From Bacteroidaceae bacterium (GTDB taxonomy: Bacteria > Bacteroidota > Bacteroidia > Bacteroidales > Bacteroidaceae), in NCBI GenBank assembly GCA_017483605.1, contig JAFUWG010000031.1, positions 40,334 to 104,333 of the forward strand: DNA of 64,000 bases. Direction: 5' to 3'. The notes under the pieces were generated by a model, which saw nothing but the letters and a program-made list of their open reading frames with translations, did not search any database and had not been told where the DNA came from. This document shows, in pieces, positions 23,471 to 50,466 of this stretch (the stretch's first letter is position 1; each line of letters begins with the position of its first letter). The translations under genes and the position numbers were made by a program.

Positions 23471-23516
23471 TTTGTTAACGGGGGGGGGTAAAAATATGCT
23501 CTATCTTTGAGCATAT
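23471..23516 (+). promoter_or_regulatory. Fimbrial operon promoter with G9 tract and dyad
   Basis: TTTG at 23471-23474 and TATCTTTG at 23502-23509 are the likely -33 and -7 elements, but 27 bp lie between them instead of about 20. Nine consecutive G (23480-23488) occupy that spacer, so slippage would change the spacing. ATATGCTC (23494-23501) and GAGCATAT (23509-23516) form a perfect dyad around the -7 box, a likely regulator site. Confidence 0.6.
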
Positions 23517-23534
23517 ATAATAAAATGTATAAAT

Positions 23535-24272
23535 TTGTATCCGAAAAATGTCCTTAAAAGGACAAAGAATTTGGGAATTGGCAAATTAAAGGAATTGATT
23601 TTGTTACTACGATTTAGGATTATATTACAAAGGATAGCCCTACTCTTTTGCTTGTTAATTATCTGCAACAGGACTATGGGACAGCAGGATTTTGCCGTGC
23701 GCAACAACTTACTGTATGACATTGCTCTGACCCCTAACATTGGTTTTGACGCACGCATTTCTCCGCATTGGACATTGGGTCTCAACGCGGGGTTTCGCCC
23801 TTGGCCTGCCGACGACAAAAAAGAGAAGAAGTGGCGGCATCTGCTTCTGGCACCCGAAGTGCGCCACTGGAACGATAGCATCTTCCACCACTCCTATTGG
23901 GGCATGAACCTCATCTACAGCCACTACAATGTGGGTGGCGTGAAATTTCCACTCGGACTCTACAAGTCGGTACGAGACCAGCGCAAGCAAGGCGACCTCA
24001 TCGCCATCGGAGCCTTCTACGGCCGTTCGTGGCGGCTCAACCACTTATTCCGCATGGAAGCAGAACTGGGCATGGGCATCGGCTACATCTGGGCAAAGAA
24101 ATACGAGTGTCCACACTGTGGTACATATCTAGGACACGACGACAAAGTGTTCCTCGTCCCCAAACTGGCTCTCAACATCGTCTATCAGAAGGCAGAAAAG
24201 AAGCCGCAGGAACCAGTCATCATCAACCCTTCGGCACCGCCAGGCAACATTCCTGCCGTCCCGACCCCTTGA
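23535..24272 (+). CDS. DUF3575 outer-membrane protein of fimbrial locus
   Basis: Up to 245 residues. No ATG begins the frame before residue 48, so translation must start at a non-ATG codon; the TTG at 23535 or one near 23595 would leave a signal peptide ending before GQQDFAVRNN. The mature part has the DUF3575 pattern (RNNLLYDIALTPNIGFDARIS...W, then alternating beta-strands), predicted as an outer-membrane beta-barrel. DUF3575 genes commonly accompany type V pilus genes in Bacteroidales. A CPHC pair in a likely loop is odd. The tail is Pro-rich. An ATG at 23525 in another frame encodes only a ten-residue peptide. Confidence 0.75.
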   Translation: MYPKNVLKRTKNLGIGKLKELILLLRFRIILQRIALLFCLLIICNRTMGQQDFAVRNNLLYDIALTPNIGFDARISPHWTLGLNAGFRPWPADDKKEKKWRHLLLAPEVRHWNDSIFHHSYWGMNLIYSHYNVGGVKFPLGLYKSVRDQRKQGDLIAIGAFYGRSWRLNHLFRMEAELGMGIGYIWAKKYECPHCGTYLGHDDKVFLVPKLALNIVYQKAEKKPQEPVIINPSAPPGNIPAVPTP

Positions 24273-24283
24273 TGGCACCCAGC

Positions 24284-24340: not shown

Positions 24341-24363
24341 AAAACAATAAAAACGGGAAAATT

Positions 24364-26121
24364 ATGACAACTATGATGAAAATAAAAAATGTCTTCCTCC
24401 TCGCAGCAGCCATGACCATAGCATGGACTGTTGTCGCCTGCTCCAGCAGCGAGGATGAGATTGACCCTGAACAAGAGCGAGGCGTTGTGAAAGCAGAATT
24501 CACCATTTCTTTCCCCAGCAAAGTTGGGTCAACCAGAATGAGTGCGGCTACCGTCCAAGATAATGGGCAGGATTTCAGGGGAATTAAAAGCATTGAATTG
24601 TATCCTTTTACCAATGTAAAATCAGACATAAGTGGAACAACAACCATTCCCAGCATGATTTCACTGGCAGGTAGTACAACCTTCGGAACAACTGGTGCAA
24701 GTGGTACCAATGCAAATGAGATTGTCAGCGGTTCACTGTTTGCGACCAACAATTCCCATCTCTATCAGAATGTTGACATCCCCATCGGAACAAAGGCATT
24801 CATGTTCTATGGAGAAGCAATCCCTTCAACTGGAGGAAATGCAGTGAACGGTGCTATCAATAAAACATCAACCGGCACAACGCTCGCAGGAATTACATTC
24901 AGCCCTCAGCCGATATGTCCCAATAGCGTCCTTGGCAAAAATGCTACCTCAATAGAAACCTACCTGACAAAAATTGCGACGGCAACAGGATGGGAAACAA
25001 GCACCAATGTTGTGCTACAAAGCCTCTACCAGTCTTTCATCTCTATGCGTGCAGGCTCATGGGCAAGCATACAGGGGGCTGTACAACAACTCTACACATC
25101 TCTTTACAGCAGAACGGACGATGTTTCTGTGGCTATTAAGACCGCTATCACCAATAGCACCTATGCCTCTGAAAGTGGGGGGACTCTCACCTTCCAGACA
25201 TTAGGCAACTATCCTGCCGACATCAACCTGCCAGATGGAGCAGCATACCTAAACTGGGATGATACAAACAAGAAATTCCAAGAAGTAACCAATAATTCTT
25301 CCACAGGTCTTGATGCTACACCCATTTCTTCATACGCTTACCCTGCTTCGCTCTACTACTATGTGCTGAGCAACATCGTAACGGCAGAAGAATCGATGGA
25401 GTCCCACTATAATGGTAACGATGCATGGAAAACTATCACAGACGCTTATGGAACATCACACCCCGCAGTGACTTCTAAAACACGTTCCATCGCCATCTTA
25501 GATCAAGTTCAGTATGCAGTGGGACGATTGGATGTTACGGTGAAAGCCGATGGCACAACGCTTGCAGACAACAAGACAAGCATTACAGTAGCAGGCACCG
25601 ACTTCCCTTTGACGGGCATTCTTGTTGGTGGGCAGAAACCTGTTGACTACAAGTTCCAACAAACTACCGGCACCGCTTACACCATCTATGACAAAGATAT
25701 TTCAGGTATCAATCTAACCTCATCTGAATCATCATCAACCCACACTTTGGTATTTGAGACTAAAGATGCAACAGAAGAGAATCAACCTGATGCCATTGTG
25801 AAAATTGCCTTGGAATTTGAAAACAAATCCAACCAGACAATTGTGGGATACAATAATCAACTCATCTACCCAAAGACCAAGTTCTACCTTGTCGGAACAT
25901 TGGATCCTTGGAAAAACGAGACTCAAAAATATGATTCCACGGGACCTGTTATCAAGAAGGCTTTTGTACAAGATTATACTACAACAGCCAATATGGTAAT
26001 AAAGAATCTGAAAAATGCGTACAATACAATGCCAGACCTACAGGCTCCACAACTCGAGATGGGACTTTCGGTCGATTTGAGTTGGAAGACAGGTATCACA
26101 CAAAAAATTGAGATTCAATAA
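24364..26121 (+). CDS. Fimbrillin family lipoprotein 1
   Basis: 585 residues with a lipoprotein signal (TVVACSSSED, acylated Cys at about 22). The mature start shows the fimbrillin pattern: a beta-strand (VKAEFTISF), then STRMSAATVQ and FRGIKSIELYPF. Members of this type V pilus family are exported as lipoproteins, trimmed at an Arg by a surface protease and polymerised by strand exchange. Two related segments recur in the neighbours: AGTDFPLTGILVGGQ near residue 415 and LPDGAAYLNWD near 300. The C-terminus (MGLSVDLSWKTG) resembles that of the next protein. It follows the DUF3575 gene by 91 bp. Whether it is shaft or tip subunit is not decidable. Confidence 0.82.
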   Translation: MTTMMKIKNVFLLAAAMTIAWTVVACSSSEDEIDPEQERGVVKAEFTISFPSKVGSTRMSAATVQDNGQDFRGIKSIELYPFTNVKSDISGTTTIPSMISLAGSTTFGTTGASGTNANEIVSGSLFATNNSHLYQNVDIPIGTKAFMFYGEAIPSTGGNAVNGAINKTSTGTTLAGITFSPQPICPNSVLGKNATSIETYLTKIATATGWETSTNVVLQSLYQSFISMRAGSWASIQGAVQQLYTSLYSRTDDVSVAIKTAITNSTYASESGGTLTFQTLGNYPADINLPDGAAYLNWDDTNKKFQEVTNNSSTGLDATPISSYAYPASLYYYVLSNIVTAEESMESHYNGNDAWKTITDAYGTSHPAVTSKTRSIAILDQVQYAVGRLDVTVKADGTTLADNKTSITVAGTDFPLTGILVGGQKPVDYKFQQTTGTAYTIYDKDISGINLTSSESSSTHTLVFETKDATEENQPDAIVKIALEFENKSNQTIVGYNNQLIYPKTKFYLVGTLDPWKNETQKYDSTGPVIKKAFVQDYTTTANMVIKNLKNAYNTMPDLQAPQLEMGLSVDLSWKTGITQKIEIQ

Positions 26122-26150
26122 TTAAAATGTTGGAAATAAAAATACATTAT

Positions 26151-28409
26151 ATGACAAAGTTTTATCAATATGCCTTGATGGGTACGATAGTGCTCGCTGG
26201 TGCAGCAGGATTTACAGCGTGCTCGTCGAGTGACGATGCACCCATTGACAATCCTCACTACAATCCGGAAACAAATGAGGTGAACGCCAGTTTTGTTTTC
26301 AATGTGTCAACAGGCAATACAGCCACGACACGCCAGACAGCCGAAGCCACTCAGGCTACGGAAAACGAACTCTTCAGAGGAATTGACAATGCTGTGCTCT
26401 TTTCCTACAAGCAGGCGGGCAAAGACGGCTACAGCCTGGCGGCTCTGCCAACCGGCGGACTGATGGACAAGCGTTATGATCTGTCGGAGATTCTGGCTCC
26501 CAACACCATCGACAAGGACAATTCACACCGAGTGATTGAAACCTCCTTGCCGCTGAACACCAACACTCTGGTTTTCTACGGAAAAGCCATCGAAGGCACA
26601 GCCTCGGCTGCCGATGCCAACAGAGGGTTCACCGCCTACGACCTGTATGGTCACCTCGACGATTACAACCCTGGTTATGACACCAACCTGGGCACCGCAA
26701 ACTTTGAGTTGGGACGACGCATGACCCCAGAGAATGTCGGCAACTTCAGAAGAATCGAAGAACTGCTGAGCGGCGTACTGACCTGCATCATGTACACCAA
26801 CTTGATGGATGACCGCCATGTGGACATCGAAGCCACCGCCCATCCGTCCAACGACGACAACATCCCTGCCTACGGATTCGACGTGGCTACGACCGAATAC
26901 CCTGAACTGAAATGGGCTGACTACTCAAACAGCGATACCAAAAGCCCCGTGGAAACATCTCACACGCTCTATCCGCTCGAAAAGAAACTGGCTGATGCCT
27001 ATCGCGAGATGACCACCATCAAGCAGTCAGCCGGCGAACTCCGAGCCGGTTCGGGTCTGGCTTTGGAAATGACGATGCAGGACCTTTGGTCGGTAATTAA
27101 CGAAGTGCGCTGTGCCACACCACTCAACAAGCCCGAGACTGTAGCCAAGTATTTGGCTGAGCGCGTGAACGAGCGTCTGCAAGAGTACTTCACCGCCACC
27201 AGCCTCCCTGTTGACGGTACTAATGTGACGGGCGTCACGTTCCGATCCACCGACCACATCATCACGTCCTTCATCTCTGACGTATGGCCAACAACAGCCG
27301 GAACGAAACCTACCGACTTCGATGCCATCAAGAATCTCTCCATGAGCCGATTCCCACAGATGTTCCACATTCCAGACGGATCCACCCACCTGGCATTCGA
27401 CCGCGACAAGCAGGCATTCAACTATGTGTGGAACTACAACACCAGTGCCGTAGGTGATGCAAGTGGATTCACTGTCGAGAGTTATTATTACCCAGCCGAA
27501 CTGCTCTACTTCGGCAACAGTCCAATCCGCGTGTCCAACACCGAGCATAAACCTAACACATACCCCAATGGTGTGGCAAACTGGGACGACGATTTGCAGT
27601 GGGACACCGCCGACTGGACAAAGAACAGTCACGTGACCTCGTCCACACAGAGCGTTGCCATGCAGAACGACGTAAACTACGGCACCGCTTTGCTGAAGAC
27701 AACCATCCGCTACGGTGCATCCACACTGAACGATAACAACCATGCCATCCAGAAGGAGAAAGACCCGTCAATCTCTGACACCGACGAGCCTGACAACACC
27801 ATCAATGTGAGCGGCACCACGTTCCAACTCATCAGTGTGGTCATAAGCGGGCAGCCAAAGAAAGTGGGATGGGACTTCACACGCAAGGCTGACGACAACG
27901 AGGTCGGCTACATCAACGACATGGCAATCTCCGATGAGGCAGCCAGGATTCCTGCCTACACAGAAGGTGGCTCAAAGTCATCACCAAACTACACGCTGGT
28001 ATTCGACAACTACAAGAATACCCCCACAGGTCAGGAGAAAGTGTACATCGCCCTCGAACTGAGAAATAACTCAGGTCAGGACTTCTTCGGTCTGCACAAC
28101 CTGATTCGCAACGGCAGCAACTTCTACCTGATTGGCGAACTGGATCCAGCCACCGTTTCTGATTTCACCTGGCCCACTCACCACGCACTGCCTCCCTACA
28201 ATGCCGACGGCTCCACCATCAAGGAGAAACGCGTCTTCATTCAGGACTTCATGACCTCTGCCGACTTCGTGATTGGAGCCAACTCTCTGAAATACGCATA
28301 CTTGACAGTACCTGATCTGCGTTACAGTGCCCTTACGCTGGGTCTTTCGGTAGATATCAACTGGTCAACGGGATTGAACTTCGACAACATCATTCTCGGA
28401 GGCGAATAG
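26151..28409 (+). CDS. Fimbrillin family lipoprotein 2 (large)
   Basis: 752 residues from the ATG at 26151; the ATG at 26127 would add eight residues. Lipobox FTACSSSDD, then a strand (VNASFVFNV), TATTRQTAEATQ and FRGIDNAVLFSY, the same order as in fimbrillin 1. The central part carries IPDGSTHLAFDRDKQAFNY and the later part SGTTFQLISVVISGQ; it ends LTLGLSVDINWSTG. It is a paralogue of the preceding protein, about 170 residues longer. Gap to the next gene is 12 bp. Predicted surface pilus subunit or adhesive accessory subunit. Confidence 0.82.
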   Translation: MTKFYQYALMGTIVLAGAAGFTACSSSDDAPIDNPHYNPETNEVNASFVFNVSTGNTATTRQTAEATQATENELFRGIDNAVLFSYKQAGKDGYSLAALPTGGLMDKRYDLSEILAPNTIDKDNSHRVIETSLPLNTNTLVFYGKAIEGTASAADANRGFTAYDLYGHLDDYNPGYDTNLGTANFELGRRMTPENVGNFRRIEELLSGVLTCIMYTNLMDDRHVDIEATAHPSNDDNIPAYGFDVATTEYPELKWADYSNSDTKSPVETSHTLYPLEKKLADAYREMTTIKQSAGELRAGSGLALEMTMQDLWSVINEVRCATPLNKPETVAKYLAERVNERLQEYFTATSLPVDGTNVTGVTFRSTDHIITSFISDVWPTTAGTKPTDFDAIKNLSMSRFPQMFHIPDGSTHLAFDRDKQAFNYVWNYNTSAVGDASGFTVESYYYPAELLYFGNSPIRVSNTEHKPNTYPNGVANWDDDLQWDTADWTKNSHVTSSTQSVAMQNDVNYGTALLKTTIRYGASTLNDNNHAIQKEKDPSISDTDEPDNTINVSGTTFQLISVVISGQPKKVGWDFTRKADDNEVGYINDMAISDEAARIPAYTEGGSKSSPNYTLVFDNYKNTPTGQEKVYIALELRNNSGQDFFGLHNLIRNGSNFYLIGELDPATVSDFTWPTHHALPPYNADGSTIKEKRVFIQDFMTSADFVIGANSLKYAYLTVPDLRYSALTLGLSVDINWSTGLNFDNIILGGE

Positions 28410-28421
28410 TCAAGAGAAGGA

Positions 28422-29468
28422 ATGAAACTGAACAGATACCATTGTGCTACGTTGTTGCTGTCAGCACTGCTGATGGTCAGTTGCTCTGTCATCGACGATG
28501 ACCGTAGCGACTGCGGCGATGACAGTAACAACTTCCAACTGGACTACGAACTGCAACTGGTGACCAACATCACGACCGAGTTGCAGACAGAACTATCCAC
28601 ACAGACGGATGTTAGCGTGGCAACAGCATTGCGTGGTTATCTGTCAGATATCTTCACCGACTTTGCCCACGACATTGACCTCTCCTTCTACGACACACAG
28701 GATGACTCCATCCGTTTGCAGCACGACCAGCATGTGATGGATGCAAACCAGGCGAGTTACACACTCAACCTGCCCATGCGCCAATATATGCACCTGGCTG
28801 CTGCCAATCTGGTAGAAAATCCCATCGTCAGCCTCGTCACCGACGAACACTGCCACACAGCAAAGTTCCTGCAGCCAACCGCCGACACCATCACCTCCCA
28901 CACCACGGGCGTGTTTTCGGCACGACTGCCAATGGACGTACAAGAAGGAATCAGCCAGCACTTCAATGTCCACCTCTACATGACCAACTGTGCAACCGCA
29001 CTGGTGATTGACACCATCGGCAGTGGCATCCGCAACCTGCAAGTGTTCACCACAGGCTTTGCCGTAGGGTTCAACCTGGCAGACAGCACTTACATCTATT
29101 CCGACACGCCGCCCATCATTACGGCCAATGCCCTCAACACCAATGCCAATACGCCACAGGTGTTCTGCTCCGTTCAGTTTCCATCTCGCGAAACCCAACC
29201 CACACGCACCATCATCGAGACCACCGACCCATTCGTTTCGACCGCAGCCGACGAGAGCCTATGGGAATACCGCATCTACGCCACCACTGCCGAAGGCACG
29301 GAAACAGAAACGATATTCCACATAAATACTCCACAACGAGCAGGACAACTCAAAGTCCTGAAAGCCAAGGCACATGCCGACGGAGCCGTAAGCACAAACG
29401 ACCCCACCGTGGGTGTAAATGTAACAACCAACTGGAACAATGGCGGACAATACAACCCCGAACTGTAG
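28422..29468 (+). CDS. FimB/Mfa2 family fimbrial anchor lipoprotein
   Basis: 348 residues with lipoprotein signal (MVSCSVIDDDRSDCG). The acidic CxxxxDDxSDC start after the lipid Cys is characteristic of FimB/Mfa2 proteins, the minor subunits that anchor type V pili and limit their length. Two Ig-like beta domains follow without a clear fimbrillin TRM motif, as expected for a subunit that is not trimmed. It lies 12 bp after fimbrillin 2 and 23 bp before the next start. Confidence 0.85.
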   Translation: MKLNRYHCATLLLSALLMVSCSVIDDDRSDCGDDSNNFQLDYELQLVTNITTELQTELSTQTDVSVATALRGYLSDIFTDFAHDIDLSFYDTQDDSIRLQHDQHVMDANQASYTLNLPMRQYMHLAAANLVENPIVSLVTDEHCHTAKFLQPTADTITSHTTGVFSARLPMDVQEGISQHFNVHLYMTNCATALVIDTIGSGIRNLQVFTTGFAVGFNLADSTYIYSDTPPIITANALNTNANTPQVFCSVQFPSRETQPTRTIIETTDPFVSTAADESLWEYRIYATTAEGTETETIFHINTPQRAGQLKVLKAKAHADGAVSTNDPTVGVNVTTNWNNGGQYNPEL

Positions 29469-29484: not shown

Positions 29485-29491
29485 ATACGAC

Positions 29492-31219
29492 TTGAGAACA
29501 CTTCATCAGCATACATATAAAATAGAAATATGTGCGATAAGCCTTATGGCATTGTGGATGATATCGTCGTGCAATACGTCAGATGAAACACCTTTGTCTG
29601 ACGTGTCACAAATATCAGCCAATGTTGCTTTGTGCCTGTCCGGTTCCCACGACGATGCCAATACCCGCATGTCGGGAAGTGCCACACAAAACGGAGGCAC
29701 CTATCGGGACATCAGCACATTCACCCTCATTCCTTTTGGCACAAACGGAATCATACAACCCGACGACTCTCCGCTTTTCCCCAGCCTTGTTTTCTCTCCC
29801 ATTGAGTCCGTCGCCAACGGCAATAACAGACATTACCATAACGAGAGATACGACCTCACCATCGGCACTGGCTCCTTCCTTTGCTACGGACAGGCTCTTC
29901 CCGTGTCAGCCCAAAGCGGTTACACCGTCACAGAATCACAATTTCTGAACGGCTCCACCACATTTACCAACACCGACAACACCCCACAGAACATCAAGTT
30001 CAGTCCCGCCGCCATCTATACCCCCGACGGAAAGGCGGAAAAACTTGCTCAATACTTGACAAGCATTGCCCATGCTGGGAATTGGTATAGAACCGATGGA
30101 GATTTGAAAAGTCTGTTTAACGAATTTACCAACTATAGCACTACCACTGCAGAGCCATACCCACCATTCGCTGGCTCCAGCACCAACATCAAGAAACTGG
30201 TCAACGGACTGTACCAGAAAGTCAAATCGTCAACGCTGAAAGACGATATTCAAGGTGCAATCAAAAGCAGCACCTATGTAAAGACCTTCAACGAAACAAC
30301 GGGAGAAGTTGAGGCTTTCAACGACAATATAGAGAACCACCCCACCAACCTCCCCGACGGAGCGGCAACCATCCGCTGGAACAACAGCAGTCAGAAGTTT
30401 GAATACCCCACCGAGGCATCCACTCTCCTACAATATGCCTATCCAGCCGAACTGTACTACTTTGCCAACAGCACACTTCGCACGTCAAATTCAGACATGT
30501 CGATGTACTATACGGCCAGCAACAGTTGGAACGATATTAAAAACGCCCACATCGATGGCACTACCATTACGGCATCAACTCGTTCCGTCGCCATCGACCA
30601 GCCGCTTCAATACGGAGTGGGCTGTCTGAAAACACTCATCAAGGCTGGCAGTGCCACTTTGCCTGATGTTAAAGGAGACCCCGTTTCCCTCACCTCCGGC
30701 ACCTTTCCCCTGACAGCCGTTCTCATCGGAGGGCAATATGAACAGACCTACTGCTTTGAGCCTACCGCTGCATCCTCAGCCAAGGAGTCCGTCATCTATG
30801 ACAAAAGCATCGCTAATGAAAATGTCTGCTTGGGAGACTGCCAAAGCGACTTCTCCGCACCACTCTACACTCTGGCATACCAAACGAGAGACCGCAAAAT
30901 CGTGACCCTCGTGCTGGAGTTTCAGAACAACTGCGACAAGGACTTCCTGTGCGAAAGCGGCACCATATATAGAGGCACAAAATTCTACATGGTGGCACAA
31001 ATCACCCCTTCCACCGTCACCACTGACCATCAGCAGCGCGTCATCACTCAAGACTATCTGACCACCATCCAACTGACCATCTCCAGCCTTGCCTCGGCAT
31101 ATAACGCCCTGCCAAGCCTTGACAACGATCAGTTGCGCCTCTTCACCGTGGTACAAGCAGGCATTCAGCAGTGGAAAGACGGTGAGAACGAATACCACCA
31201 CAACGTACACAACTGGTAA
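29492..31219 (+). CDS. Fimbrillin family lipoprotein 3 (TTG start)
   Basis: 575 residues. The TTG at 29492 gives a standard signal: MRTLHQHTYKIEICAISL followed by MALWMISSCNTSDE with the lipid Cys. The mature protein has DANTRMSGSATQ and YRDISTFTLIPF, the middle has LPDGAATIRWNNSSQKFEY and SGTFPLTAVLIGGQ, matching fimbrillins 1 and 2 segment by segment, so the three are paralogues. It carries several Cys (NVCLGDCQSD, NNCDKDFLCES), more than its relatives. It follows the Mfa2-type gene by 23 bp. Predicted pilus subunit. Confidence 0.8.
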   Translation: MRTLHQHTYKIEICAISLMALWMISSCNTSDETPLSDVSQISANVALCLSGSHDDANTRMSGSATQNGGTYRDISTFTLIPFGTNGIIQPDDSPLFPSLVFSPIESVANGNNRHYHNERYDLTIGTGSFLCYGQALPVSAQSGYTVTESQFLNGSTTFTNTDNTPQNIKFSPAAIYTPDGKAEKLAQYLTSIAHAGNWYRTDGDLKSLFNEFTNYSTTTAEPYPPFAGSSTNIKKLVNGLYQKVKSSTLKDDIQGAIKSSTYVKTFNETTGEVEAFNDNIENHPTNLPDGAATIRWNNSSQKFEYPTEASTLLQYAYPAELYYFANSTLRTSNSDMSMYYTASNSWNDIKNAHIDGTTITASTRSVAIDQPLQYGVGCLKTLIKAGSATLPDVKGDPVSLTSGTFPLTAVLIGGQYEQTYCFEPTAASSAKESVIYDKSIANENVCLGDCQSDFSAPLYTLAYQTRDRKIVTLVLEFQNNCDKDFLCESGTIYRGTKFYMVAQITPSTVTTDHQQRVITQDYLTTIQLTISSLASAYNALPSLDNDQLRLFTVVQAGIQQWKDGENEYHHNVHNW

Positions 31220-31231: not shown

Positions 31232-32380
31232 ATGAAAGTCAACGACATACATCACATTTGTATCGCACTCTGCATAACCTCCATGCTGAGCCTTTCGGCA
31301 TGTTCCGACGACGACGGACAAGACACCCGTCAACTCGGACAGCGACAAATGAGCCTAACCCTCTGCCCACAGCAACTCCAAGCAACACCCTCCTCGCTCA
31401 CCCGTGCACTGCCTTTCGGCTACGAAACCCTGAACACACCGTCACGTTACGCCCGAATCTGGACATTCATCGCCCCACAGGAGGGAGCAGATGCAATAAC
31501 CCGAATCTTCTCATTAGACATGAACGGAGCCAGTTGGCAGTCCAACCTCACCCTCTCCGACACCAGTAACCCCTACTACATCTATGGCTTTACCCCCACA
31601 GGCACCGACACATCCTCCGACATTGCCATCGACCAACTCCCCGGACATACAGGCTATGCGGCAGGTGCCCAACTCACCATCCGAAATCTCCAAGCCGTCA
31701 CCGCGCAAGACCCCTGTGTGATTGTAGGCGTGAAGAAAGGCGATGGCAGCAACACCCCCATAAATGACATTGACATCCGGTTGGGCAACTTCAGTTACAA
31801 GTTTGCCGACACTGTCGAAAACGAATATGCTTATCTGCTTCTCAACCATCTGTTTGGAGCCTTCCACTTCGAGATGAAGATCAATGAGACCTACGCTCAG
31901 TTGCGTACCATTGTTATCAAGTCCATGCGGCTTACAGCCTTGGCACCCTCAACGGTACAGACAATCGTGACCCTCACCACCACAGCCAATGGCACCACCC
32001 CCTTGGTGGGCGACAATGCCATCCAGTTCACCACTCCAGATGCGGCAACCGAGGGCACTCCATTTACCTTATACGAGACGAGCAGCGGCACCGATGAGCC
32101 TCTGTCCCTAACCACCAGTTACCAGCCCATCCGCAGTGAAGCCATCTACATTGCTCCCAGCATTCAGAACTTCAGGCTCACCACCCTGTACGACGTGTAC
32201 GATAGAAATGGCAACCTCATCCGCAAAGACTGTACTGCCGACAACACCTTCAGTATGAGCCACTTATACTCCGAACTAAAACCTGGCTATCGCCACACCA
32301 TCCATATAGAAGTCAACCCTACTTTTCTCTATGTATTGTCAGAGCCCGACTTGGACAGCCCGACATTTACCGTTGAATAA
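31232..32380 (+). CDS. Fimbrillin-like (Mfa-like) lipoprotein 4
   Basis: 382 residues with lipobox LSACSDDDG. After a short linker, LTRALPFGYETLNTP and IWTFIAPQEG fit the shorter Mfa-like/fimbrillin-like group rather than the three longer paralogues upstream. The remainder is beta-rich with one further region of similarity to fimbrillin C-terminal domains. It lies 12 bp after fimbrillin 3 and 14 bp before the giant gene, so it is translated from the same message. Possibly a tip or adaptor subunit; this is inferred from position and length only. Confidence 0.75.
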   Translation: MKVNDIHHICIALCITSMLSLSACSDDDGQDTRQLGQRQMSLTLCPQQLQATPSSLTRALPFGYETLNTPSRYARIWTFIAPQEGADAITRIFSLDMNGASWQSNLTLSDTSNPYYIYGFTPTGTDTSSDIAIDQLPGHTGYAAGAQLTIRNLQAVTAQDPCVIVGVKKGDGSNTPINDIDIRLGNFSYKFADTVENEYAYLLLNHLFGAFHFEMKINETYAQLRTIVIKSMRLTALAPSTVQTIVTLTTTANGTTPLVGDNAIQFTTPDAATEGTPFTLYETSSGTDEPLSLTTSYQPIRSEAIYIAPSIQNFRLTTLYDVYDRNGNLIRKDCTADNTFSMSHLYSELKPGYRHTIHIEVNPTFLYVLSEPDLDSPTFTVE

Positions 32381-44300: not shown

Positions 44301-44634
44301 CTTCACCAAGCCGTCTTCGGCGGCGTCAAAGCGAAACCACACCCGCATCGCTATCGGCAGCACCGAAGCAGAAAGTCAGTTTGGCGGCGAAGAGACCGAC
44401 CCGACAGAGGGTGACACAGGCAGCCTGACGATTACAGGACGAAAGCACACCATCATCGTGTCGTCATCGCTCCGCACAGAGGTTCCGGTACGCATTGTGA
44501 ATGTCAGCGGCATCAACCTCACCACCTTCACCATCCAACCAGGTGAAAGAGTAGAGACCCACGTTCCGATGACAGGTGTTTACATCATCCGTGCCGCTGG
44601 TGGCAAGTATAACAAAAAGATATCAGTTAAATAA
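32395..44634 (+). CDS. Giant VYGGG-repeat surface protein with T9SS sorting domain
   Basis: 4079 residues. The signal peptide ends near FANAQ. From about residue 24 to 1935 there are close to forty units with a core of [VIL][YF]GG[GN], each usually followed by a strand such as VTGSTVICV or GDTHINLG, suggesting a long beta-solenoid. Residues about 1940-3200 are non-repetitive beta-rich sequence. About 3200-3340 resembles GLUG-type repeats (LCGNVYNLGVTGSF). The last 65 residues (VPVRIVNVSG...MTGVYIIRAAGGKYNKKISVK in outline) form a type A T9SS sorting domain, so it should cross the outer membrane by type IX secretion. It begins 14 bp after fimbrillin-like gene 4. Likely a surface adhesin; ligand unknown. 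Confidence 0.82.
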   Translation: MRKISTILLFLTITFANAQIRIGGNVYGGGNAGNVGGGTSVTLRAGDLNAVFGGARMANVGGSTFVHINGAEASDYMIINKIYGGNDIAGTIGTSATVPSALTEIKRTEEDQNDQDKYDIDATWNTFVRISTKTTTDDETGEVTEADDAKKIYIGQLFGGGNGDYDYTSEKLDDGETDNPYYNLTKPELGKTYLELCGGSIVYAYGGGNNATVTGSTVICVNNPSKVVNSIKDAQGVELLTTERFRTQMGINTGFSYPSSDAFQIGRLFGGNNMAEMSIRPRWNLLHGKIRNLYSGGNKGAMTHHEGLLLEIAENSTITIDNVYGGCRMADVHPLQSGTLASGEYYDVASRDIQLSDTDDEGNPLYHFPSGLSARVLVRGGDINNVYGGNDITGNVKGGNAVGVYTSIRGDVYGGGNGSYPYTDNAALKNDDIYGDLYYTIPTGKKSVEALNDFRPNAEQVSIRVVGKEKNVNGKTQITPTIIHGSIFCGGNCATLRNNDPTKDAVAELKIGSHVIADRVFLGNNGENMIRPDILEYYAKCVDTNGDVADIGTDFSQMDLTSTTLDSNGNKEFDLYMDGVAMSIKPSVVFDGDSDSDDPTIKYKPYSSSFGSLFCGGNVGSITKSGKSTLNINREIIIYDKLVGGCNNAYVLSGDYNTNYQGGIIGVKSELNSDGLYTDAAGNIKDRLELNLAGLKIEPKRWAKDEDGNYKKDANGNHYLEWNTVDARQFDASTKKYAEVAPVTSGSGATDTDDEYRRLDSGNIYGGCCTSGIVNGNVIININASIIETDTIFDAVEKDDEAGEDKLYGNTYSITKRRSGVILDYQGMDVLGTALNVFGGGKGLETEIWGSTTINMNRGYVFQVFGGSEQGAIGKRKSTATGTYEKDDYGRYVYEYDPRYSTYVNLAGLTTGVSKAADGGTDEDLAEAEFLYGGGFEGPIAGDTHINLGNGRIFNSFAGSCNADIQGHTETYIGKDGFPYVRDYVYGGNDLGGKILGQANFASRVRDNDDNADNGNGNLTRVHGYSESNASKSDVLNASAYIEYQQGHVEKIFGGCYGVYDYTNPLYGQYFYATGGEDTTDSNKGKARTDKGYSKPFLDNAFINFRPINSNNALNTVGQIYGAGQGYFTEKEENLMQNRSYILIDVPSSMQTYQSTEIFGAGECGGVGMGVDPTILTNYKVGETTVTGQPDKASAIIDLMSGHFKNVYGGSYEEGITRRTVVNVPTGSTFRANKLFGGAYGRIDVTSTVKTDPETGKPLKDEEGNDVVVVEETPRIDVACDVYEANVNYNSADATIDEAIYGGNNACRRTLYGKVNITAPVKGGSHWTGLVNVYGAGYGVNTWSQYTEVNLESGAEVQEVYGGGENGQVLNKASVEKWKTTQTDLYTDLEKEYVDEGLASTLANSNRLYEVDHSRPEKYNTNVHIKKGATVRRYCYGGGLGSGSIPHSGNVYGTTYIDLLGGKVDYDLYAAGTSGSVKDSLGVKGDFIASATAYIEGGTARNVYGGGWRGTVGHHKGAITEPYTDDIYGETHVIIGKLNGGDFYDGIPTVERNAYGGGEGGAVFGTANITLNNGYIGYRYHSDWEDKSETTTIDERYEEKINDETSTELGTLINSGSIYGGGYIDNSNVDVSNVVMYGGHVRNALFGGGEIAAIGRGVINASGEENSVRKLQGIYKAGKTHVTLYDGYVHRNVFGGGRGYNYEGNGGTLYSDGYVFGQTEVNIFGGEVGTVKELEAGNGNVFGGGDIGYVYSAYEKDGKLCAGIKSGERYDDQREGYYYKNEGGAYENGVYTGGNWAMDGDEYILTEDCKVLVEPHCIVTSTDGVVIKTPVEGKQPEDNDYLQDVTYAPGSYVPTAALNTLKNKNDDVAIWRKLDTRGIIIHNAVFAGGNTSTGSATVYANATTVFGNATASIHDCYHRDLITIGTGHTGGLYGDGNLTFVDGYRGLNITNYGTDYYTIEDTPEISITQYHALDDREAAYYELRYKCIKACTDKEHTNYTPGGDGTKASTLSADDLLTLFADVTDGNTPLIVTNDKGEKVPNPEYWQENGVCTIYAGRIMNTIQRADFCGVFGSRMVMQGARDRVPETVDFTNYTINRVREVSLNQQHSIISSDLTQYSGTDKPENEGFENIKKAIHGNYFGIYNTVNFLGALSSDQHLTDMRLTDNTTNGEYKTDFTLDGTTHGYGTENATYYKWKQAHIADRLRNNGRSHNKVALASGVSLELTTEKSTGSDLNEKDWGYITGIVELDLINVQEGIGGGFVYAKNEHRKCTYQRKKHVTLTALNADAITRRDFTYSDEEIVEWETSGNFVHSTQTIIDDCYNRSGKYSGEDAVPAHYWYIKGQVYIYDQYISAYTGAPNAYSETVDIPLTITAASHGTMRLLDVKPNKYAFYSSPNNPLNPGQKIVINEITYYQNDPISYWDWSLLGAAEKQLFVDETYVTTANCKVGDVEVPAGTVMLPGATDGSTEGTYYAWMKKAKNATNATTPTVYHEDKKENVDFDFVFRPSNNLSHEAGYILTYKVNNPKLWDAWNTMYESSTYEKRQTDYPANVESNKGPTYRLKGTDGDVLGQRKYEVGNLIPEDIYYTYEGKSGDAQYPGIKDRITESDGVQATFEPAYIVTKQIEVTHDDNSKTHLNPGSTMSETDAASHTGSVDPAYICISTIQISSTEFIYLNAKMSLTDKNAYVALVNRRIQDILTGASITKSPEEITKMTSLTPEERAGLTDANKTKLSSLLSSRKEINDNIVPAYYCTKEGNYGGNYYESGKNYRGLAAWCSMSETDRNKFDFNYDALNLLIDSNYANAEGAKYQYDGNYTTEEEVKAGNLAGYSITQPVDYTATYNGDTPLTYKDQNDAEHYVAVGSPDLDREAFENIPNEQRHYVPIKADNTGKCYVVKVPLQIGNTPYAVGKTVSKEIYDTHQNEVVEITFDNGDNNTYYFCRESYEVGHYGEGQAVKAAISIGDVDKGTVKGTRDVVPVGFIISKDGEDDASTTDVTEHTYGYVNLVNKQTDFTIHGIAPTETSTLYVSRESDIFDLSAEKIITVIYRYDYEEGASDEITPISERHVVNIHIKFKSGVPSVEDIKVPPVIIPGDKLGLLEPNVTPGAYEVTGGGWKLFETPDDAESHINGIDYIPNNHPLYWYQDGYYLAYYAKTYLGETYSNHVQISVANYHDLKKVMSDDAKTHHYYVDNPNVKRNSKIYINDAADGLNQLKKFFDLSLLTTVPTEGDLAGHALLDEHVKSADNIEFILQTDINQAGGWEPIAQEEEECFKGSLHGDGYRISGLDHSLFGHLCGNVYNLGVTGSFTTAGVADAGGGFVENCWVKSSATALPDGESKVKAVFNHEDDDSKHIVNCYYPEGNDALYEGGAAYKIADNAFHNGTVAYNLNGFYLAKRYYDNNNSWTGEKKGYNYLVSANGTLTKQTSQYPTSIVYYPLNQTTKQYGYVESRYADGDFRYAGGSIPETAEEREITDGSNQSYYPIWPDDYLFFGQMLTYGWNENRPHEEVPTHIYKLSGRLVTSDQSNRVYRAPAYYRSKTMDVAHFNPHANLVSFSKPKNSTDTDLHPAYPDMTAIDFAGHNSDNSYKFGFNDGFFFQPLLDDDGLQSIVNRDMTPNLLVYAPARTTATEGEYANQTTYDVLTNYFKEPAYEDYWGGDPYKCVEDAPASTIYGHLVQANLTATSDHLLVDKQEFNCPIEYDFDGDHLMWYQRKPDNYVDFTKGWEGISLPFTAQLVTTDQKGEITHFYGGSNNVEGSNAKTGHEYWLREYQGKLSEEGDVFTAKFNYPDATNDTSTKEATNTFLWDYYYNGSNPSDRLPDDDHHKDANRDTYQTYYSDTRTYNHYPLLTHGTPYLIGFPGSRYYEFDLSGTFDISGAETTTASPGPERLKRQTITFASATGAKVAVSDNEQGTTDAGYLFKTNYLKQQLNGDNWTLNAQNDEGKSSFDKTPTTATDETPAVTVLPFRPYFTKPSSAASKRNHTRIAIGSTEAESQFGGEETDPTEGDTGSLTITGRKHTIIVSSSLRTEVPVRIVNVSGINLTTFTIQPGERVETHVPMTGVYIIRAAGGKYNKKISVK

Positions 44635-44644: not shown

Positions 44645-47600
44645 ATGAATCACATGATGATACGACAATATAAGATGGTAAAAATGGTACCATGTATGCG
44701 CTTAGTTTCCTTGATGCTCCTGACAATACTGGCAGGAGGGATGTGGGGACAGACAGAGATTAGTGACGTGAATGGATTGAAAGAGATGGCTGCTGATGGA
44801 AATTACATAATTGTTGCAGACATTGACGCCAAAACTTTCAGCAATAGCATTGCTACTTTTTCCGGCACGTTGGAGGCTCAAATCAACCCTGATACCAACA
44901 TGCCATACCACATCAAAAACCTCAGCAAACCACTCTTCGCCACTCTCACAGGAACAGTACGCAATTTGGTGATTGAAAACGTCACTATCAGTCAGAGCGG
45001 ACAGGTCGGGGCTGTGACATGCGTAGCAAACGGAACGGCACGTATCTATAATGTGGGTATCCACGGTGGAAGAGTGAAAAGTACTGGCACTTCGAGTGCC
45101 AACAATAGCACTGACTGCTGCGGCGGCATTGTAGGTTTTCTGGACGGCGAAGCACGCGTCATCAATTGTTATAACTATGCCGACATTACTGGCGGTAACC
45201 GCGTTGGTGGCATTGTGGGATATAACAATTTTAAAACCGACAAGAATAAACTCAAGACAATGGTCTTTGGCTGCATGTTCTATGGTGAGATCAGCATCAA
45301 TGATGTAAAAAGCATTGCTCCAATTTATAACGGACAGGAAATCTTGAACAAAGATGACAACGGTGTGAGCAATTTCAACTACTGCCGTGCCGAAGCATCT
45401 TACGTGCAACAGAACAAAATTAACATTTACAATTGTGCACTGCTGGCTGAGACTCGTTTTCTACAACGTTTCGAATTCTTCCGCCATCTGCTCAACGGCC
45501 ATCGCGAGGTGGCAGCATGGTGGGTCAGCGGCAATGTGGCCGATACGGCACAGATAATGAAGTGGGTGATGCTGCCCGACAGTATCGGCAGTGCCCATCC
45601 CTACCCCGTGCTGAAGAAGTGGGGGCGCTATCCTTCAGTGGTAAACCTCGACGCTGAACACGCCACCACGGGGCAACCTCGCAATCAAGGCGGAAAACTC
45701 GGCGAACTGAGTGTAACGATTGAAATGGGCGATGGCGAGCAGTTCGGTCACCCTGCAGATGCCACAATTACCACCACCAACACCACCCTCATCATCACAG
45801 ACAAGGACACGACACACTTTAACTTCAACTACCACAAAGTGCAACTGCCTTACTACAACGACGTGGGCACCAAGAACTACACAGGCGGCCGCGTGGTGGT
45901 GGGCTGGAAAATCACGACAATCACCGGTGGCACCGCAGGCACTTTTTCCGTTCCCGCCAACGACAACACTCCAGCCGAAGCACCATACTACAACTTCGCC
46001 GACCGCAACTGCACAGACAAAGACCTCTACAGCGTCAGTGGTCGCATCTTCAACCAAGGTGACTACTGGGACGTGCCCGAAGGCGTAACAGCCATCACCA
46101 TCCAGCCCTATTGGGCAAAGGCAGCATTCGTTGCCGACGACTACCGCGAGGTGGTCTATAATACGGCTATGAGCACAAAGAAAAATATCTCCACTGTGGC
46201 TGGCGGACAGTGGTTCACCAACAACAACGACCACATCTTCAGGTTCAACGGCGAGGACCTTACCCTTAGAGTCTATAGTGCCATCAGCAACGCCGTCACA
46301 GCCATGGAAATCACCACGAGCCATACGGTCTATGACTACGCCGTGGTGCTGGTAGGCAACTACCACCAATACAATGGCATACTTGACGGAAGTTCTGGCA
46401 AAAACCAACCCTACACCATCATGTCCATTGACCTTGACAAGGACAACGAGCCAGACTATTCGTACATCTTGCGTTTCGACAGCCGAACATTTCTGCACCC
46501 AGTGCGCATCGACTTCCTGAGCGTTCCTGGTCTCGGCATGGCACAGAAGGCATCGGGCGGTACTGGATCCTATAACTTCGGTATTCCCAAGCCGAGAGGA
46601 TGGTTTGAAGTGACCAACACAGCCCTTTTTCGTGTCACCCAGTTTGAGTACAGTCCCAACGACCGCGTTAAGAAACCCATTATCCTGCATGGTGGCGTGA
46701 TAGAACAATGGGTGTCATCACAGGGAGCGAACAACAGCAGCGGTGACCCAGGCGACCGCACCTCTTATTTTTATATGGGTGACAATGTGTGGTTCAAGGA
46801 ATTCCACATCGGTGTCCACCAAGACTACAAGAATCCAACCCCTCATCCACCTGTATCTGTCACAGGTGGCGACTACGACCAATTCTATCTGACAGGTCTC
46901 TACCAAGCCGATGCCACCAACTACAATGACAACGCCGAGTGCTACATCAATGGTGGTCGCTTTGGCATCATGGCTGGTGCCGGCATGGAGGGAATAGGCA
47001 ATGCCTCAACACATACCAACGGCAACATCACATGGTTGATTGACCACGCCGACATCCACGAGTTCTACGGAGGCGGCATCAATGCAGCCAAGCCTGTGCA
47101 GGGAAATATCAGTACAACCATCAGCAATAGCCACGTGGGGCAATTCTGTGGCGGTCCTAAATTCGGTGACATGGAGGACGGTCGCACCGTCACCACCATC
47201 GCTAAAGACTGCATTTTCGGCACATATTTCGGTGCTGGATATGGTGGCAACTCTTACAGTCGCTATGCTCCGAGCAATAAAAGCAATATACAAAATATCG
47301 ATTGGAATGACTGGGTGCGGAAGGAATACAAACAAAATTGGAACGGCACCTATCAAGGTGTTTCTACTCAAATCAACTACCAGTTCATTCCTATGTCGGG
47401 CAACGCCAGTAACGTGGCACGTCTCTGGGTGGAATATGTCAAGTTCTCATTGGCGAAAACCCACAACGTCACCTCCAACCTTACAGACTGCACCGTGACA
47501 GGTAACTTCTACGGCGGCGGTAGCCTCGGCAAGGTGGCAGGCAACGCCACCTCGACACTTAAAGGATGTACAGTAAATGGAAATGTTTTCGGTGCCGGTT

Positions 47601-49687
47601 TCTCAGCCTCGCTGCCTTCCGTTGAGGTGGACAGTATCGGTTATCGTTTAGAACCTCTCTACTACACAGGTCTCGGTACTTATCGCACGGCTGTAAAAGG
47701 ACCGACCACCACCTACACCTGGCAGCACCGCGACGGAACGATTAACGACGATAAAACCGCAATCGACAAGAAAACGCAAATTCTCTATACCAACGAGGAT
47801 TTGACCACGCTCGGAACCGTGGAGGGACTCGTAACGCTGAACATCGAAGACGGAACAACAGTGGCAGGAGATGTGTTTGGCGGAGGCGAGTCGAGTAATG
47901 CCACGGGTAATGTGGTAGTCAACATCAACGGAGGTTCTGCGTCAAACGTCTATGGCGGCGGCAGTGTGGCAAATGTGGGTGGTTCCACAACTGTCAACCT
48001 GACAGGGGGTAGAATCTCAGGAGATGTGTATGGAGGAGGAAAAGGCAGATTGGCATCAGGCACGGCAGGAGAAGAAGACTACATTGAGCCCATCGCTGCC
48101 ACGGTAGGTGATGCGACAGTGGAGTTGAACAAAAATGTTGCTGATGATGCCAAAGGATGTGTGGTCATCGGCAACATCTTTGGCTGCAACAATCTGAATG
48201 GCACGCCATTAGGCACTGCGACCGTACACGTTTATGCCACACAGAATGACAATGCTTCACGCATCACAAACCCTGTGGAGAGTGAATCTGATTCTGGCGA
48301 TGGAAACAGCGATGGAGACGACGATGAAGAGGATGAACCTACAGAAAAGGTGAAAGGTCGTTACGATGTAAACGCTGTGTATGGCGGTGGCAACTTGGCG
48401 GCGTATGTACCCACAGACTTGGAGAATGGCACCACCCGTGTCATCATCGACGGTTGCGACCGCACCAGCATAAAGACGGTGTATGGCGGTGGTAATGCGG
48501 CATCGACTCCTGCCACCAATGTTACCGTGAACAATACCTTTGAGATTGAGGAACTGTTTGGTGGCGGCAATGGTGCCGACAGGTTACCCGACGGGTCGGA
48601 GAATTCAGGAGCCAACGTGGGCTTTAAGGACTATTCGGCAGTGGAGAACATTTACAACACGAAAGAGTTAAGAGAGTCAGACACCGATTTCATCAGCAAC
48701 TATGTGTATGGCACAGGCAAGGCATCCGTCACCATGTATGGCGGACAGGTGCATCGTGTGTTTGGCGGCTCGAACACTAAGGGCAACGTGCGTCAGACGG
48801 CTGTGACCATGCTCGATGATGCGAATGACTGCGAGTTCGCTGTGGAAGAGGCTTACGGAGGCGGGAAAAGTGCGCCAATGGACGCTGAAGCCCAGTTATT
48901 GATGTCTTGCATTCCAGGATTGAATGTTGCATACGGAGGTGCCGAGGCTGCAGACATTCAGGGCAACGTGACGCTCAACATCTCGAACGGAACCTTCAAA
49001 CAGGTGTTTGGAGGTAACAATATCAGTGGTATCATACGTGGCTCCATCACTGTGAACATCGAAGAGACCGGCTGCAAGCCAATCGTCATCGGCGAACTCT
49101 ATGGCGGTGGAAACTTGGCGGCTTACTCTGTATATGGCTACAGGGAAGAGACGGAAACGGTGACAGACAATGAAGGCAATGAAAAAGAAGTGAAGACATG
49201 GGTACCTGTCAGACCCGATGACGAGGACGCTCCGAGCACCCCTCTATATAGTCACCCTACGATAAATGTCAAGTCCTTCACCCAAATCGGTGAAGTGTAT
49301 GGTGGCGGTATGGGAACATCGGCTGTAATGGTGGGAAATCCTATAGTGAACATTGACCAAGTACCAGGCAAATTTGCCCATCTGATAGATGCTGATGATG
49401 ACGGTACGGCTGATAATAATTCTGAGCAAATGGGAACTATCGGAATTGTATATGGCGGTGGCAATGAGGCAGAGGTGGTAGGCGACACCAACGTGAACAT
49501 CGCCACACATGATACCATCGACTTTGTGACCAAGGACGAGGACGCTGATTCCACAGAAGCACAACCCCGCACAGGTGTCACAGTCAAGGGTGCCAACATC
49601 ACAGGCAACGTGTTTGGCGGCGGCAATCATGCCGCTGTGACCGGCAACTCGAATGTGACCATCGGAAAACAGGCAACCACTGAATGA
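44645..49687 (+). CDS. Large VYGGG-repeat exported protein without sorting tail
   Basis: 1680 residues from the ATG at 44645, 10 bp after the giant gene; starts further in, such as at MVPCMRLVSLML, are possible. The signal peptide ends near GMWGQ. Residues about 30-170 carry GLUG-like repeats (VRNLVIENVTIS, CCGGIVGFLDGEARVINCYNYADITG, VGGIVGYNN). About 170-800 is non-repetitive. From about 805 to the end run VYGGG units like those of the giant protein, interrupted near 1211 by an acidic Asp/Glu/Ser run. The protein stops inside a unit (NVFGGGNHAAVTGNSNVTI) with no T9SS domain. Its stop overlaps the next start (ATGA), so the two are translationally coupled. Confidence 0.78.
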   Translation: MNHMMIRQYKMVKMVPCMRLVSLMLLTILAGGMWGQTEISDVNGLKEMAADGNYIIVADIDAKTFSNSIATFSGTLEAQINPDTNMPYHIKNLSKPLFATLTGTVRNLVIENVTISQSGQVGAVTCVANGTARIYNVGIHGGRVKSTGTSSANNSTDCCGGIVGFLDGEARVINCYNYADITGGNRVGGIVGYNNFKTDKNKLKTMVFGCMFYGEISINDVKSIAPIYNGQEILNKDDNGVSNFNYCRAEASYVQQNKINIYNCALLAETRFLQRFEFFRHLLNGHREVAAWWVSGNVADTAQIMKWVMLPDSIGSAHPYPVLKKWGRYPSVVNLDAEHATTGQPRNQGGKLGELSVTIEMGDGEQFGHPADATITTTNTTLIITDKDTTHFNFNYHKVQLPYYNDVGTKNYTGGRVVVGWKITTITGGTAGTFSVPANDNTPAEAPYYNFADRNCTDKDLYSVSGRIFNQGDYWDVPEGVTAITIQPYWAKAAFVADDYREVVYNTAMSTKKNISTVAGGQWFTNNNDHIFRFNGEDLTLRVYSAISNAVTAMEITTSHTVYDYAVVLVGNYHQYNGILDGSSGKNQPYTIMSIDLDKDNEPDYSYILRFDSRTFLHPVRIDFLSVPGLGMAQKASGGTGSYNFGIPKPRGWFEVTNTALFRVTQFEYSPNDRVKKPIILHGGVIEQWVSSQGANNSSGDPGDRTSYFYMGDNVWFKEFHIGVHQDYKNPTPHPPVSVTGGDYDQFYLTGLYQADATNYNDNAECYINGGRFGIMAGAGMEGIGNASTHTNGNITWLIDHADIHEFYGGGINAAKPVQGNISTTISNSHVGQFCGGPKFGDMEDGRTVTTIAKDCIFGTYFGAGYGGNSYSRYAPSNKSNIQNIDWNDWVRKEYKQNWNGTYQGVSTQINYQFIPMSGNASNVARLWVEYVKFSLAKTHNVTSNLTDCTVTGNFYGGGSLGKVAGNATSTLKGCTVNGNVFGAGFSASLPSVEVDSIGYRLEPLYYTGLGTYRTAVKGPTTTYTWQHRDGTINDDKTAIDKKTQILYTNEDLTTLGTVEGLVTLNIEDGTTVAGDVFGGGESSNATGNVVVNINGGSASNVYGGGSVANVGGSTTVNLTGGRISGDVYGGGKGRLASGTAGEEDYIEPIAATVGDATVELNKNVADDAKGCVVIGNIFGCNNLNGTPLGTATVHVYATQNDNASRITNPVESESDSGDGNSDGDDDEEDEPTEKVKGRYDVNAVYGGGNLAAYVPTDLENGTTRVIIDGCDRTSIKTVYGGGNAASTPATNVTVNNTFEIEELFGGGNGADRLPDGSENSGANVGFKDYSAVENIYNTKELRESDTDFISNYVYGTGKASVTMYGGQVHRVFGGSNTKGNVRQTAVTMLDDANDCEFAVEEAYGGGKSAPMDAEAQLLMSCIPGLNVAYGGAEAADIQGNVTLNISNGTFKQVFGGNNISGIIRGSITVNIEETGCKPIVIGELYGGGNLAAYSVYGYREETETVTDNEGNEKEVKTWVPVRPDDEDAPSTPLYSHPTINVKSFTQIGEVYGGGMGTSAVMVGNPIVNIDQVPGKFAHLIDADDDGTADNNSEQMGTIGIVYGGGNEAEVVGDTNVNIATHDTIDFVTKDEDADSTEAQPRTGVTVKGANITGNVFGGGNHAAVTGNSNVTIGKQATTE

Positions 49688-50466
49688 TGAGAAAAGGTTG
49701 CACTTTGCTGATATGGCTGCTTTGCTGCATCTCCGCCGTCAAGGCTCAGGAAGCAGTTTTCCCCTACCCCGAAATACCCGACTCGGTGGAGGAGCCAAGT
49801 GTACGACTCTCCTACATTCTTGACCATTTTTGGTGCCATTACTCTTTTGCTGACACCACAGTCACTAACCGTCAGGTGGGCGAGCAAGGACTGGTGGACT
49901 TTCTCAACCTGATGCAACACGCTGACTCTATCTCAGCGGCACATGGTGCGGCTTGTTTTGCTGATTCGCTCTCGAAATATCCTGTCGCCACAGATTTCTT
50001 CACCCAACAAATGGAGCACTATTTGGCAGACCCCGATTCGCCCCTGCACAGCGACGAGGTGTACGCCCTACTGCTTCGTGCACTGCCACAAACTCCACAG
50101 CGAGAATGGCTCTTGCAGCAGTTGGCAAAAAACAGGACAGGAATGGTGGCGACTGACATCTGGGTAACTGACCTGCACGGAAAACGCCAACGGCTGCACA
50201 GCATCGAGGCTGAACTGACACTACTCATCTTCTTTTCGCCTGAATGTCCTCGATGCCAGCAATTAGAGGCTCAACTGGAGCAGGAGCCGCTTATCGTGCA
50301 GAATCCTCGTTTGAGTGTGGTGCGTATGCAGAAGGAAAAACTGAAGGCAGAGTATTATGTGCCTTTCACCCCTGCACTTTATCTGCTGGACAAGAAGAAA
50401 CGTATAGTGCTGAAAGACACCAATCTGCAGGTGCTGTTGAATCTGTTGCAAGAGAGAAAACTATGA
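49684..50466 (+). CDS. DUF5106/thioredoxin-like exported protein
   Basis: 260 residues with a signal peptide ending near ISAVKAQ. Residues about 25-150 match the DUF5106 helical domain found in front of thioredoxin folds; about 150-260 is thioredoxin-like with the active-site motif CPRC (FFSPECPRCQQLE) and a cis-Pro region FTPALYLLD. It probably works in the periplasm as a thiol-disulfide protein. The start overlaps the stop of the upstream adhesin gene by four bases. Several proteins of this operon contain cysteines, so a folding role for them is a reasonable inference. It is the last gene before the MATE promoter. Confidence 0.8.
   Translation: MMRKGCTLLIWLLCCISAVKAQEAVFPYPEIPDSVEEPSVRLSYILDHFWCHYSFADTTVTNRQVGEQGLVDFLNLMQHADSISAAHGAACFADSLSKYPVATDFFTQQMEHYLADPDSPLHSDEVYALLLRALPQTPQREWLLQQLAKNRTGMVATDIWVTDLHGKRQRLHSIEAELTLLIFFSPECPRCQQLEAQLEQEPLIVQNPRLSVVRMQKEKLKAEYYVPFTPALYLLDKKKRIVLKDTNLQVLLNLLQERKL

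Follow-up and report, generated by a model that had tools for sequence, protein, structure and literature searches.

A type V pilus operon with a proposed tip cassette of giant repeat proteins and a poly-G tract at its promoter

Why would a pilus operon encode two giant repeat proteins, one of them with a sorting domain of the type IX secretion system (T9SS)? The question is raised by nine genes at positions 23535-50466 of a 64-kb stretch of DNA (the window), taken from a 3.06-Mb assembly of 56 contigs that is 81.5% complete. The source organism is a member of the Prevotellaceae that lives in the gut and is a relative of the Prevotella of the rumen. We propose that the run is a type V pilus operon in which a conserved cassette (fimL-G1-G2, with or without a thioredoxin gene) occupies the distal position of the tip adhesin, and whose promoter is switched by slippage; we assign this reading a probability of roughly 0.58. 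The names fimA, fimB, fimC, fimL, G1 and G2 were coined in this analysis. The features are:

23480..23488, plus strand: G9 tract, a candidate slippage (phase-variation) switch; the sole G or C run of at least 8 in the 64 kb, with a similar place in many homologous operons
23506..23537, plus strand: putative Bacteroidota-type promoter, assigned from pattern positions (TTTG at 23506-23509, a 20-nt spacer and TAAATTTG at 23530-23537)
23535..24272, plus strand: DUF3575 outer-membrane-type gene (Pfam, 1.2e-47)
24364..26121, plus strand: fimA, type V prepilin, a lipoprotein with a Thr-Arg (TR) site
26127..28409, plus strand: fimB, fimA paralogue (BLASTP to fimA 2.1e-34, and alignment)
28422..29468, plus strand: Mfa2-type anchor lipoprotein without a TR site (PF08842 matches in its family)
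~29492..31219, plus strand: fimC, fimA paralogue with a probable TTG start (BLASTP to fimA 6.6e-62; start inspected)
31232..32380, plus strand: fimL, fimbrillin-like lipoprotein with a TR site, the proposed G1 adaptor (from co-occurrence with G1)
32395..44634, plus strand: G1, 4079 residues, signal peptide by eye, C-terminal T9SS type A sorting domain, 38 Cys
44645..49687, plus strand: G2, 1680 residues, signal peptide by eye, M26_N match near the N-terminus, C-terminal beta-solenoid, 20 Cys
49684..50466, plus strand: DUF5106 with a thioredoxin-like domain and a conserved CxxC (DUF5106 8.9e-27; Thioredoxin_2 3e-5, below the family cut-off)

Inspection of the open reading frames placed all nine genes on the plus strand in the order DUF3575, fimA, fimB, anchor, fimC, fimL, G1, G2, DUF5106-thioredoxin, separated in turn by 91, 5, 12, 23, 12, 14, 10 and -4 bp. 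These are the nine co-directional genes, with gaps of -4 to 91 bp, described in the initial annotation. The components that it listed were likewise recovered; its order needs correction, since the anchor sits between fimB and fimC and not after all three paralogues. The G9 tract goes unremarked in it.

The pilus genes

Homologous loci were compared in two sets. The genome set (G labels) comprised 61 genomes searched for the C-terminal 1079 residues of G1, and the named set (L labels) comprised the best 80 of 199 anchor-profile relatives, found in one-per-species genomes; L095 and L103 are identical in sequence to G003 and G007 in this region, so that the sets overlap by two. The named relatives are metagenome-assembled genomes titled Prevotella, Prevotellaceae, Bacteroidaceae or Bacteroidales, many of them from rumen, reticulum or omasum, and also Prevotella lacticifex, Prevotella sp. 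tf2-5, P. communis E15-14 and Xylanibacter brevis.

The products of fimA, fimB and fimC are three paralogous lipoproteins (mutual BLASTP E values of 8.6e-26 to 6.6e-62). Their family went unrecognised in sequence searches of Pfam and PDB; its structure was therefore modelled, and the model predicts the pilin fold expected of a type V pilus. A TR site no more than 60 residues past the lipid Cys was present in 29/30, 14/15 and 11/11 pilin-type lipoproteins, at distances of 9-45 residues. None of 14 anchors has TR there, and 12 of the 14 carry single Arg residues (1-3) in the same stretch. PF08842 (Mfa2) was matched by 9/14 members of the anchor family (best 5.2e-8) and Mfa_like_1 by 2/15 members of the fimL family (best 1.8e-5). 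When profiles of the anchor and fimL were searched against PDB sequences, no credible match emerged. The genome also encodes a C11 clostripain-type protease (PF03415, 4.3e-39), for which we propose a role in clipping the pilins.

The DUF3575 protein has 245 residues in the window and 280 in G007; 10/12 orthologues, the window counted, have 508-588, lengths that depend on a mechanical choice of start. In the window only TTG starts lie ahead of the signal-like stretch, and the gene ends after the DUF3575 domain. Neither this gene nor fimC has a plausible ATG start. The G003 orthologue, the sole one scanned, gave weak OmpA and TPR matches. Between DUF3575 and fimA lies a 19-bp tandem repeat of 3.1 copies (24288-24346), which is not general, since in G003 these genes are just 18 bp apart.

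The fimL-G1-G2 cassette

As the initial annotation had noted, both giants are rich in VYGGG-type repeats: 29 motifs in G1, mainly within residues 26-1885, and 16 in G2, compared with means of 0.83 and 0.45 when the same residues were shuffled 500 times. It had also called G1 a T9SS protein and spoken of T9SS adhesins in the plural; a sorting domain was recognised in G1 at a borderline level and none in G2. The G1 match to TIGR04183 scored 23.0 bits at a cut-off of 23 in one run and is borderline because a second run gave 20.0 bits, below the cut-off. G2 has no TIGR04183 match and no NCBIfam sorting domain up to E 1. SprA of the T9SS machinery was found in the source genome. Pfam searches up to E 1 returned no family, and no vWA domain, for G1; for G2 they returned M26_N alone, with no lectin, vWA or ligand-binding domain.

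An AlphaFold2 model of the last 620 residues of G2 (predicted local distance difference test score 87.3, predicted template modelling score 0.88) is a beta-solenoid. Its structural matches are solenoids that include the adhesins pertactin and EtpA, although repeats of this kind match one another easily. The possibility that G2 is a truncated gene was ruled out: its C-terminal repeat is conserved in 16 aligned rows, which were picked for matching it (G036 was omitted where it crossed the end of its stretch), and the thioredoxin gene overlaps the G2 stop.

Do the giants belong with the pilus genes in other genomes? The G1 query matched 19/61 genomes at E 0.001. Strong matches (E ≤2.1e-272) came from 15 genomes, all of the window's genus with the window included (G001 is cut by a contig end), and weak ones from G004, G029, G030 and G033. 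Contig C18 of G029 holds a second frame, of 6358 residues, weakly similar to the end of G1. The order pilus genes-fimL-G1-G2 recurs in the stretches of the 15 genus genomes, with the anchor upstream in 14 of them (the exception is G015) and G2 following G1 in all 14 whose contig continues. The loci also vary: one additional FimA-like gene stands between fimC and fimL in 11/15 genomes, the window lacking it; an extra gene separates G1 from G2 in G014, G034 and G015; and the G2 frame is fragmented in G003 and crosses a contig end in G026.

The named set extends this association. G1 lies downstream of the anchor in 57/80 loci, or in 56/72 if loci with less than 9 kb of downstream DNA are left aside. 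By tblastn (1e-5), fimL was detected in exactly the 57 G1 loci. G1 is missing from 23 named loci; in the 16 of these with at least 9 kb downstream fimL was found in none, and the other 7 are too short to judge. The G1 label needs 3 changes on the anchor tree, and from these sequences the association of G1 with the pilus is old and stable. Thus the suggestion of a joint surface structure gains support from the conserved order, the fimL-G1 pairing and the G2 solenoid, and the proposed search for the same gene order found it across divergent relatives, with G1 beside pilus genes in most named loci. Other large distal genes are present in many loci without G1. Among 8 proteins scanned from four such loci, three gave Lcl_C matches under the family cut-off. 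L126 and L142 have no operon gene downstream of the anchor, the side that was covered.

Several observations weigh against the cassette reading. The window's own anchor, fimA and fimL lack a Pfam match. PorU was not found in the source genome, itself 81.5% complete, and was found in the other 11/12 genomes. The absence of fimL from loci without G1 is a tblastn result, its co-occurrence with G1 is uncorrected for shared ancestry, and L166, which lacks G1, has in the same place an unrelated-looking 370-residue lipoprotein and a large gene without VYGGG. The thioredoxin gene follows G2 in 9/14 readable genomes and is lacking in 5/14, which weakens the earlier idea that the system has its own redox folding helper; in the 9/9 homologues of this gene C188, C191 and P230 are invariant. 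In G015, fimL, G1 and G2 are present although stalk, anchor and DUF3575 are missing, and therefore G1 may function without a pilus. In that genome (L067, L068, L089) an ATPase-like gene, so judged by eye, replaces DUF3575, stalk and anchor. Finally, G004 has G2 without G1 or anchor.

The last two cases favour the idea that the giants form a T9SS surface system of their own, with an adhesive or layer-forming role, which is co-transcribed for timing and makes no physical contact with the pilus; the sorting domain carried by G1 itself fits this too. Against it, the pilin-like lipoprotein fimL with its TR site accompanies G1 in all its named loci and is found in none of the judgeable others, and where fimL-G1 is missing other large distal genes occupy the place. 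We regard a separate system as unlikely.

The promoter G/C tract

Putative promoters were labelled with the pattern TAnnTTTG, which we take to be the Bacteroidota consensus type. On the plus strand between 22700 and 51000 it occurs at 23502 and 23530, ahead of the operon; at 37560 and 48535, within the giants; and at 50496, which is 33 bp ahead of the start of the next gene, a MatE transporter lying 62 bp past the operon end. One main promoter for the whole run is plausible. Scans for Sigma70-type promoters (22, with 14.3 and a standard deviation of 4.1 in shuffles, and 19, with 16.0 and 4.6) and for terminators (14, shuffles 13.7, and 13, shuffles 13.6) gave counts near chance and are unsuited to this phylum, whose consensus is a different one (PMC12632263).

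The end of the G9 tract is 41 bp from the TAnnTTTG at 23530, and the second TAnnTTTG lies 13 bp past the tract. A distance of 41 or 42 bp was found in the window, G003, G014, G017, G025, G034, G036 and L107, and one of 41 bp, by hand count, in G026, where the tract is inside the mechanically longest frame and before the TAnnTTTG; in eight others the distance is 27-29 bp. Runs of at least 9 are expected 0.23 times per 64 kb. In the named loci, 22/26 runs of at least 8 fall in the 450 bp that precede the DUF3575 match, a zone of 31,522 of 1,523,225 bp, and in the genome-set stretches 8/10 such runs lie ahead of the pilus operon, the distant relative G029 included (two are also in the named set). 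Homopolymers are thus enriched at the promoter over background, as expected of a phase-variable promoter. The 34 distinct tracts comprise 26 of G and 8 of C. On the tree they require at least 16 gains or losses and at least 5 changes of polarity, and the tract label is clustered beyond 494-498 of 500 shuffles. Lengths vary among relatives, for example C9 and C7 at 89% identity. Among cultured strains with the operon, X. brevis ATCC 19188 (L152) has a C8 tract, and no tract of at least 7 was found in P. communis E15-14 (L143) or P. lacticifex (L112). That either G or C runs have been gained repeatedly in one position points to selection acting on the homopolymer as such, and hence to slippage.

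An alternative is that the tract is a protein-binding site or a chance feature. Consistent with this, 18/34 distinct tracts lie off the two common distances, and 26/53 G1 loci have no tract of at least 7. Against it, G and C runs both serve, with the polarity changes just given, lengths differ between relatives, and most runs stand at the operon start. We judge this alternative unlikely. The tractless loci also weigh against our own reading: because of them, and because L167 has a tract without G1, the tract and the giants are not tied together. Tracts of at least 7 were present in 27/53 G1 loci and 0/13 loci without G1 (Fisher 4e-4, uncorrected for relatedness), in a table covering 66/80 named loci (left out were 10 for want of a forward DUF3575 match preceded by 450 bp of sequence and 4 that lacked G1 and had less than 9 kb downstream). 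The idea that the tract is confined to G1 operons was dropped on account of L167, uncounted for want of a DUF3575 match, whose G12 tract (L167:7458), the longest seen, lies 25 bp before a TAnnTTTG ahead of a pilin gene. The idea that tractless loci rely on an invertible promoter was set aside; 14-bp inverted repeats spaced more than 60 bp apart occur in 4/26 of the G1 loci without a tract.

Further tracts were seen elsewhere. L169, which like L167 supplies one of the four runs outside the zone before DUF3575, carries a C8 run 90 bp upstream of a TAnnTTTG that is located between fimB and the anchor. On contig C1 of G004, near 87934 (L080:7934), a G8 tract and TAnnTTTG precede an unrelated 976-residue surface-type gene, near the lone G2. 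The source genome has nine separate G9-or-longer tracts; beyond that of the operon these are L175, L177, L180, L181, L183, L184, L185 and L186. By eye, that of L175 is within an acetyltransferase-like frame and that of L185 at the junction of two acyltransferase-like frames. The window also contains an IS200-type transposase (53211-53666) and a low-GC stretch (14092-17619) with several short tandem repeats of 23-bp period.

Proposed working and known systems

How might the parts work together? The single promoter would change in activity through slippage of the adjacent G tract. The products of fimA, fimB, fimC and fimL would be surface lipoproteins cut after Thr-Arg by a surface protease of the C11 clostripain type; the cut would free a groove for strand exchange, and the anchor, which has no site, would tie the pilus to the membrane. 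The motifs and one fold behind this step were observed here, and the process itself is modelled on P. gingivalis and Bacteroides. FimA, FimB and FimC would form or join the stalk, held by the anchor. G1, exported by the T9SS, would then join the pilus at or near the tip via fimL, like Mfa5 in the Mfa1 tip complex, as co-occurrence, gene position and the sorting domain suggest. G2, by whatever route it is exported, may give its presumed partner G1 further solenoid length or binding surface, and where present the DUF5106-thioredoxin may aid cysteine pairing in the giants.

A more specific version, which we hold to be rather unlikely, is a phase-switchable pilus, expressed through slippage of the tract, with a two-chain rod: the open C-terminal rung of G2, which lacks a T9SS signal, would stack on the open N-terminal rung of T9SS-exported G1, giving one continuous solenoid on fimL. 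The end of G2 and the start of G1 are the same repeat type in the relatives compared, and the last strand of the G2 model is at 609-613 of 620 residues. G029 and G033, both distant relatives, have a G2-like gene ahead of G1. In G030, residues 2101-3840 of a 6296-residue chain give 61 matching pieces with G2 homologues against 1 with G1 and are followed by G1-like sequence (23 G2 and 15 G1 sequences were compared; repeats make these counts soft). Counting against the rod, the comparable stretch of G033 is nearer G1 (3e-21) than G2 (2e-8), and that of G029 matches both. Improbable, finally, is a role of the giants as regulators of length or assembly or as a protective sheath: G1 and G2 do lack recognised ligand-binding domains, M26_N of G2 apart, but their genes stand where the fim and mfa clusters have their tip genes (PMC5789003), and the solenoid matches of G2 include adhesins, easy as cross-matches between repeats are.

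The nearest known system is the Mfa1 fimbriae of P. gingivalis (mfa1-mfa5), which, in the portions of PMC7835359 and PMC5789003 drawn upon, combine an anchor, cleaved lipoprotein pilins and a distal Mfa5 with a T9SS-targeting C-terminal domain. The window shares with them the type V operon, the anchor, lipoprotein pilins that are predicted to be cleaved and a distal protein in the tip position with such a domain. It differs in the co-occurring fimL, in a second giant without a sorting domain and in the poly-G promoter tract. Compared with Mfa5, G1 has 4079 residues, VYGGG repeats and no recognised vWA domain, and by domain content it is not an Mfa5 family member.

Type V pili of Bacteroides likewise have stalk, anchor and tip pilins whose surface lipoprotein precursors are cut by a surface clostripain; the part of PMC12632263 considered here describes promoter inversion for capsule loci and phase-variable fimbriae and names no homopolymer. 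Relative to that description, the window adds a homopolymer tract and a giant T9SS protein. The beta-solenoids of curli CsgA (8c50), an ice-binding beta-helix (3p4g) and pertactin (2iou) share 10-18% identity with the G2 model; we claim no relationship, because repeats are a common arrangement. Homopolymers in fimbrial promoters have a precedent in Bordetella, whose fim promoters carry a poly-C tract; the pilus class and phylum are unrelated, and an effect of tract length is putative in the present operon.

The view that no such system had been described must be narrowed: Mfa5 is a precedent for a T9SS protein in a type V operon, while our searches, which covered an open-access collection, turned up no report of this gene set or of a homopolymer-switched Prevotella pilus. 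What appears new is the giant cassette with its own adaptor together with the homopolymer promoter. If the reading is correct, tip cassettes of type V pili are exchangeable, and they can include proteins thousands of residues long that reach the surface through a different secretion system. Because fimL and G1 are paired, the manner in which T9SS proteins attach to such pili can be put to a direct test in cultured strains. Rumen Prevotellaceae may then switch type V pili by DNA slippage, compared with the inversion described for Bacteroides in the part of PMC12632263 cited above, and cells may toggle a very large adhesive structure via a slippery G/C run.

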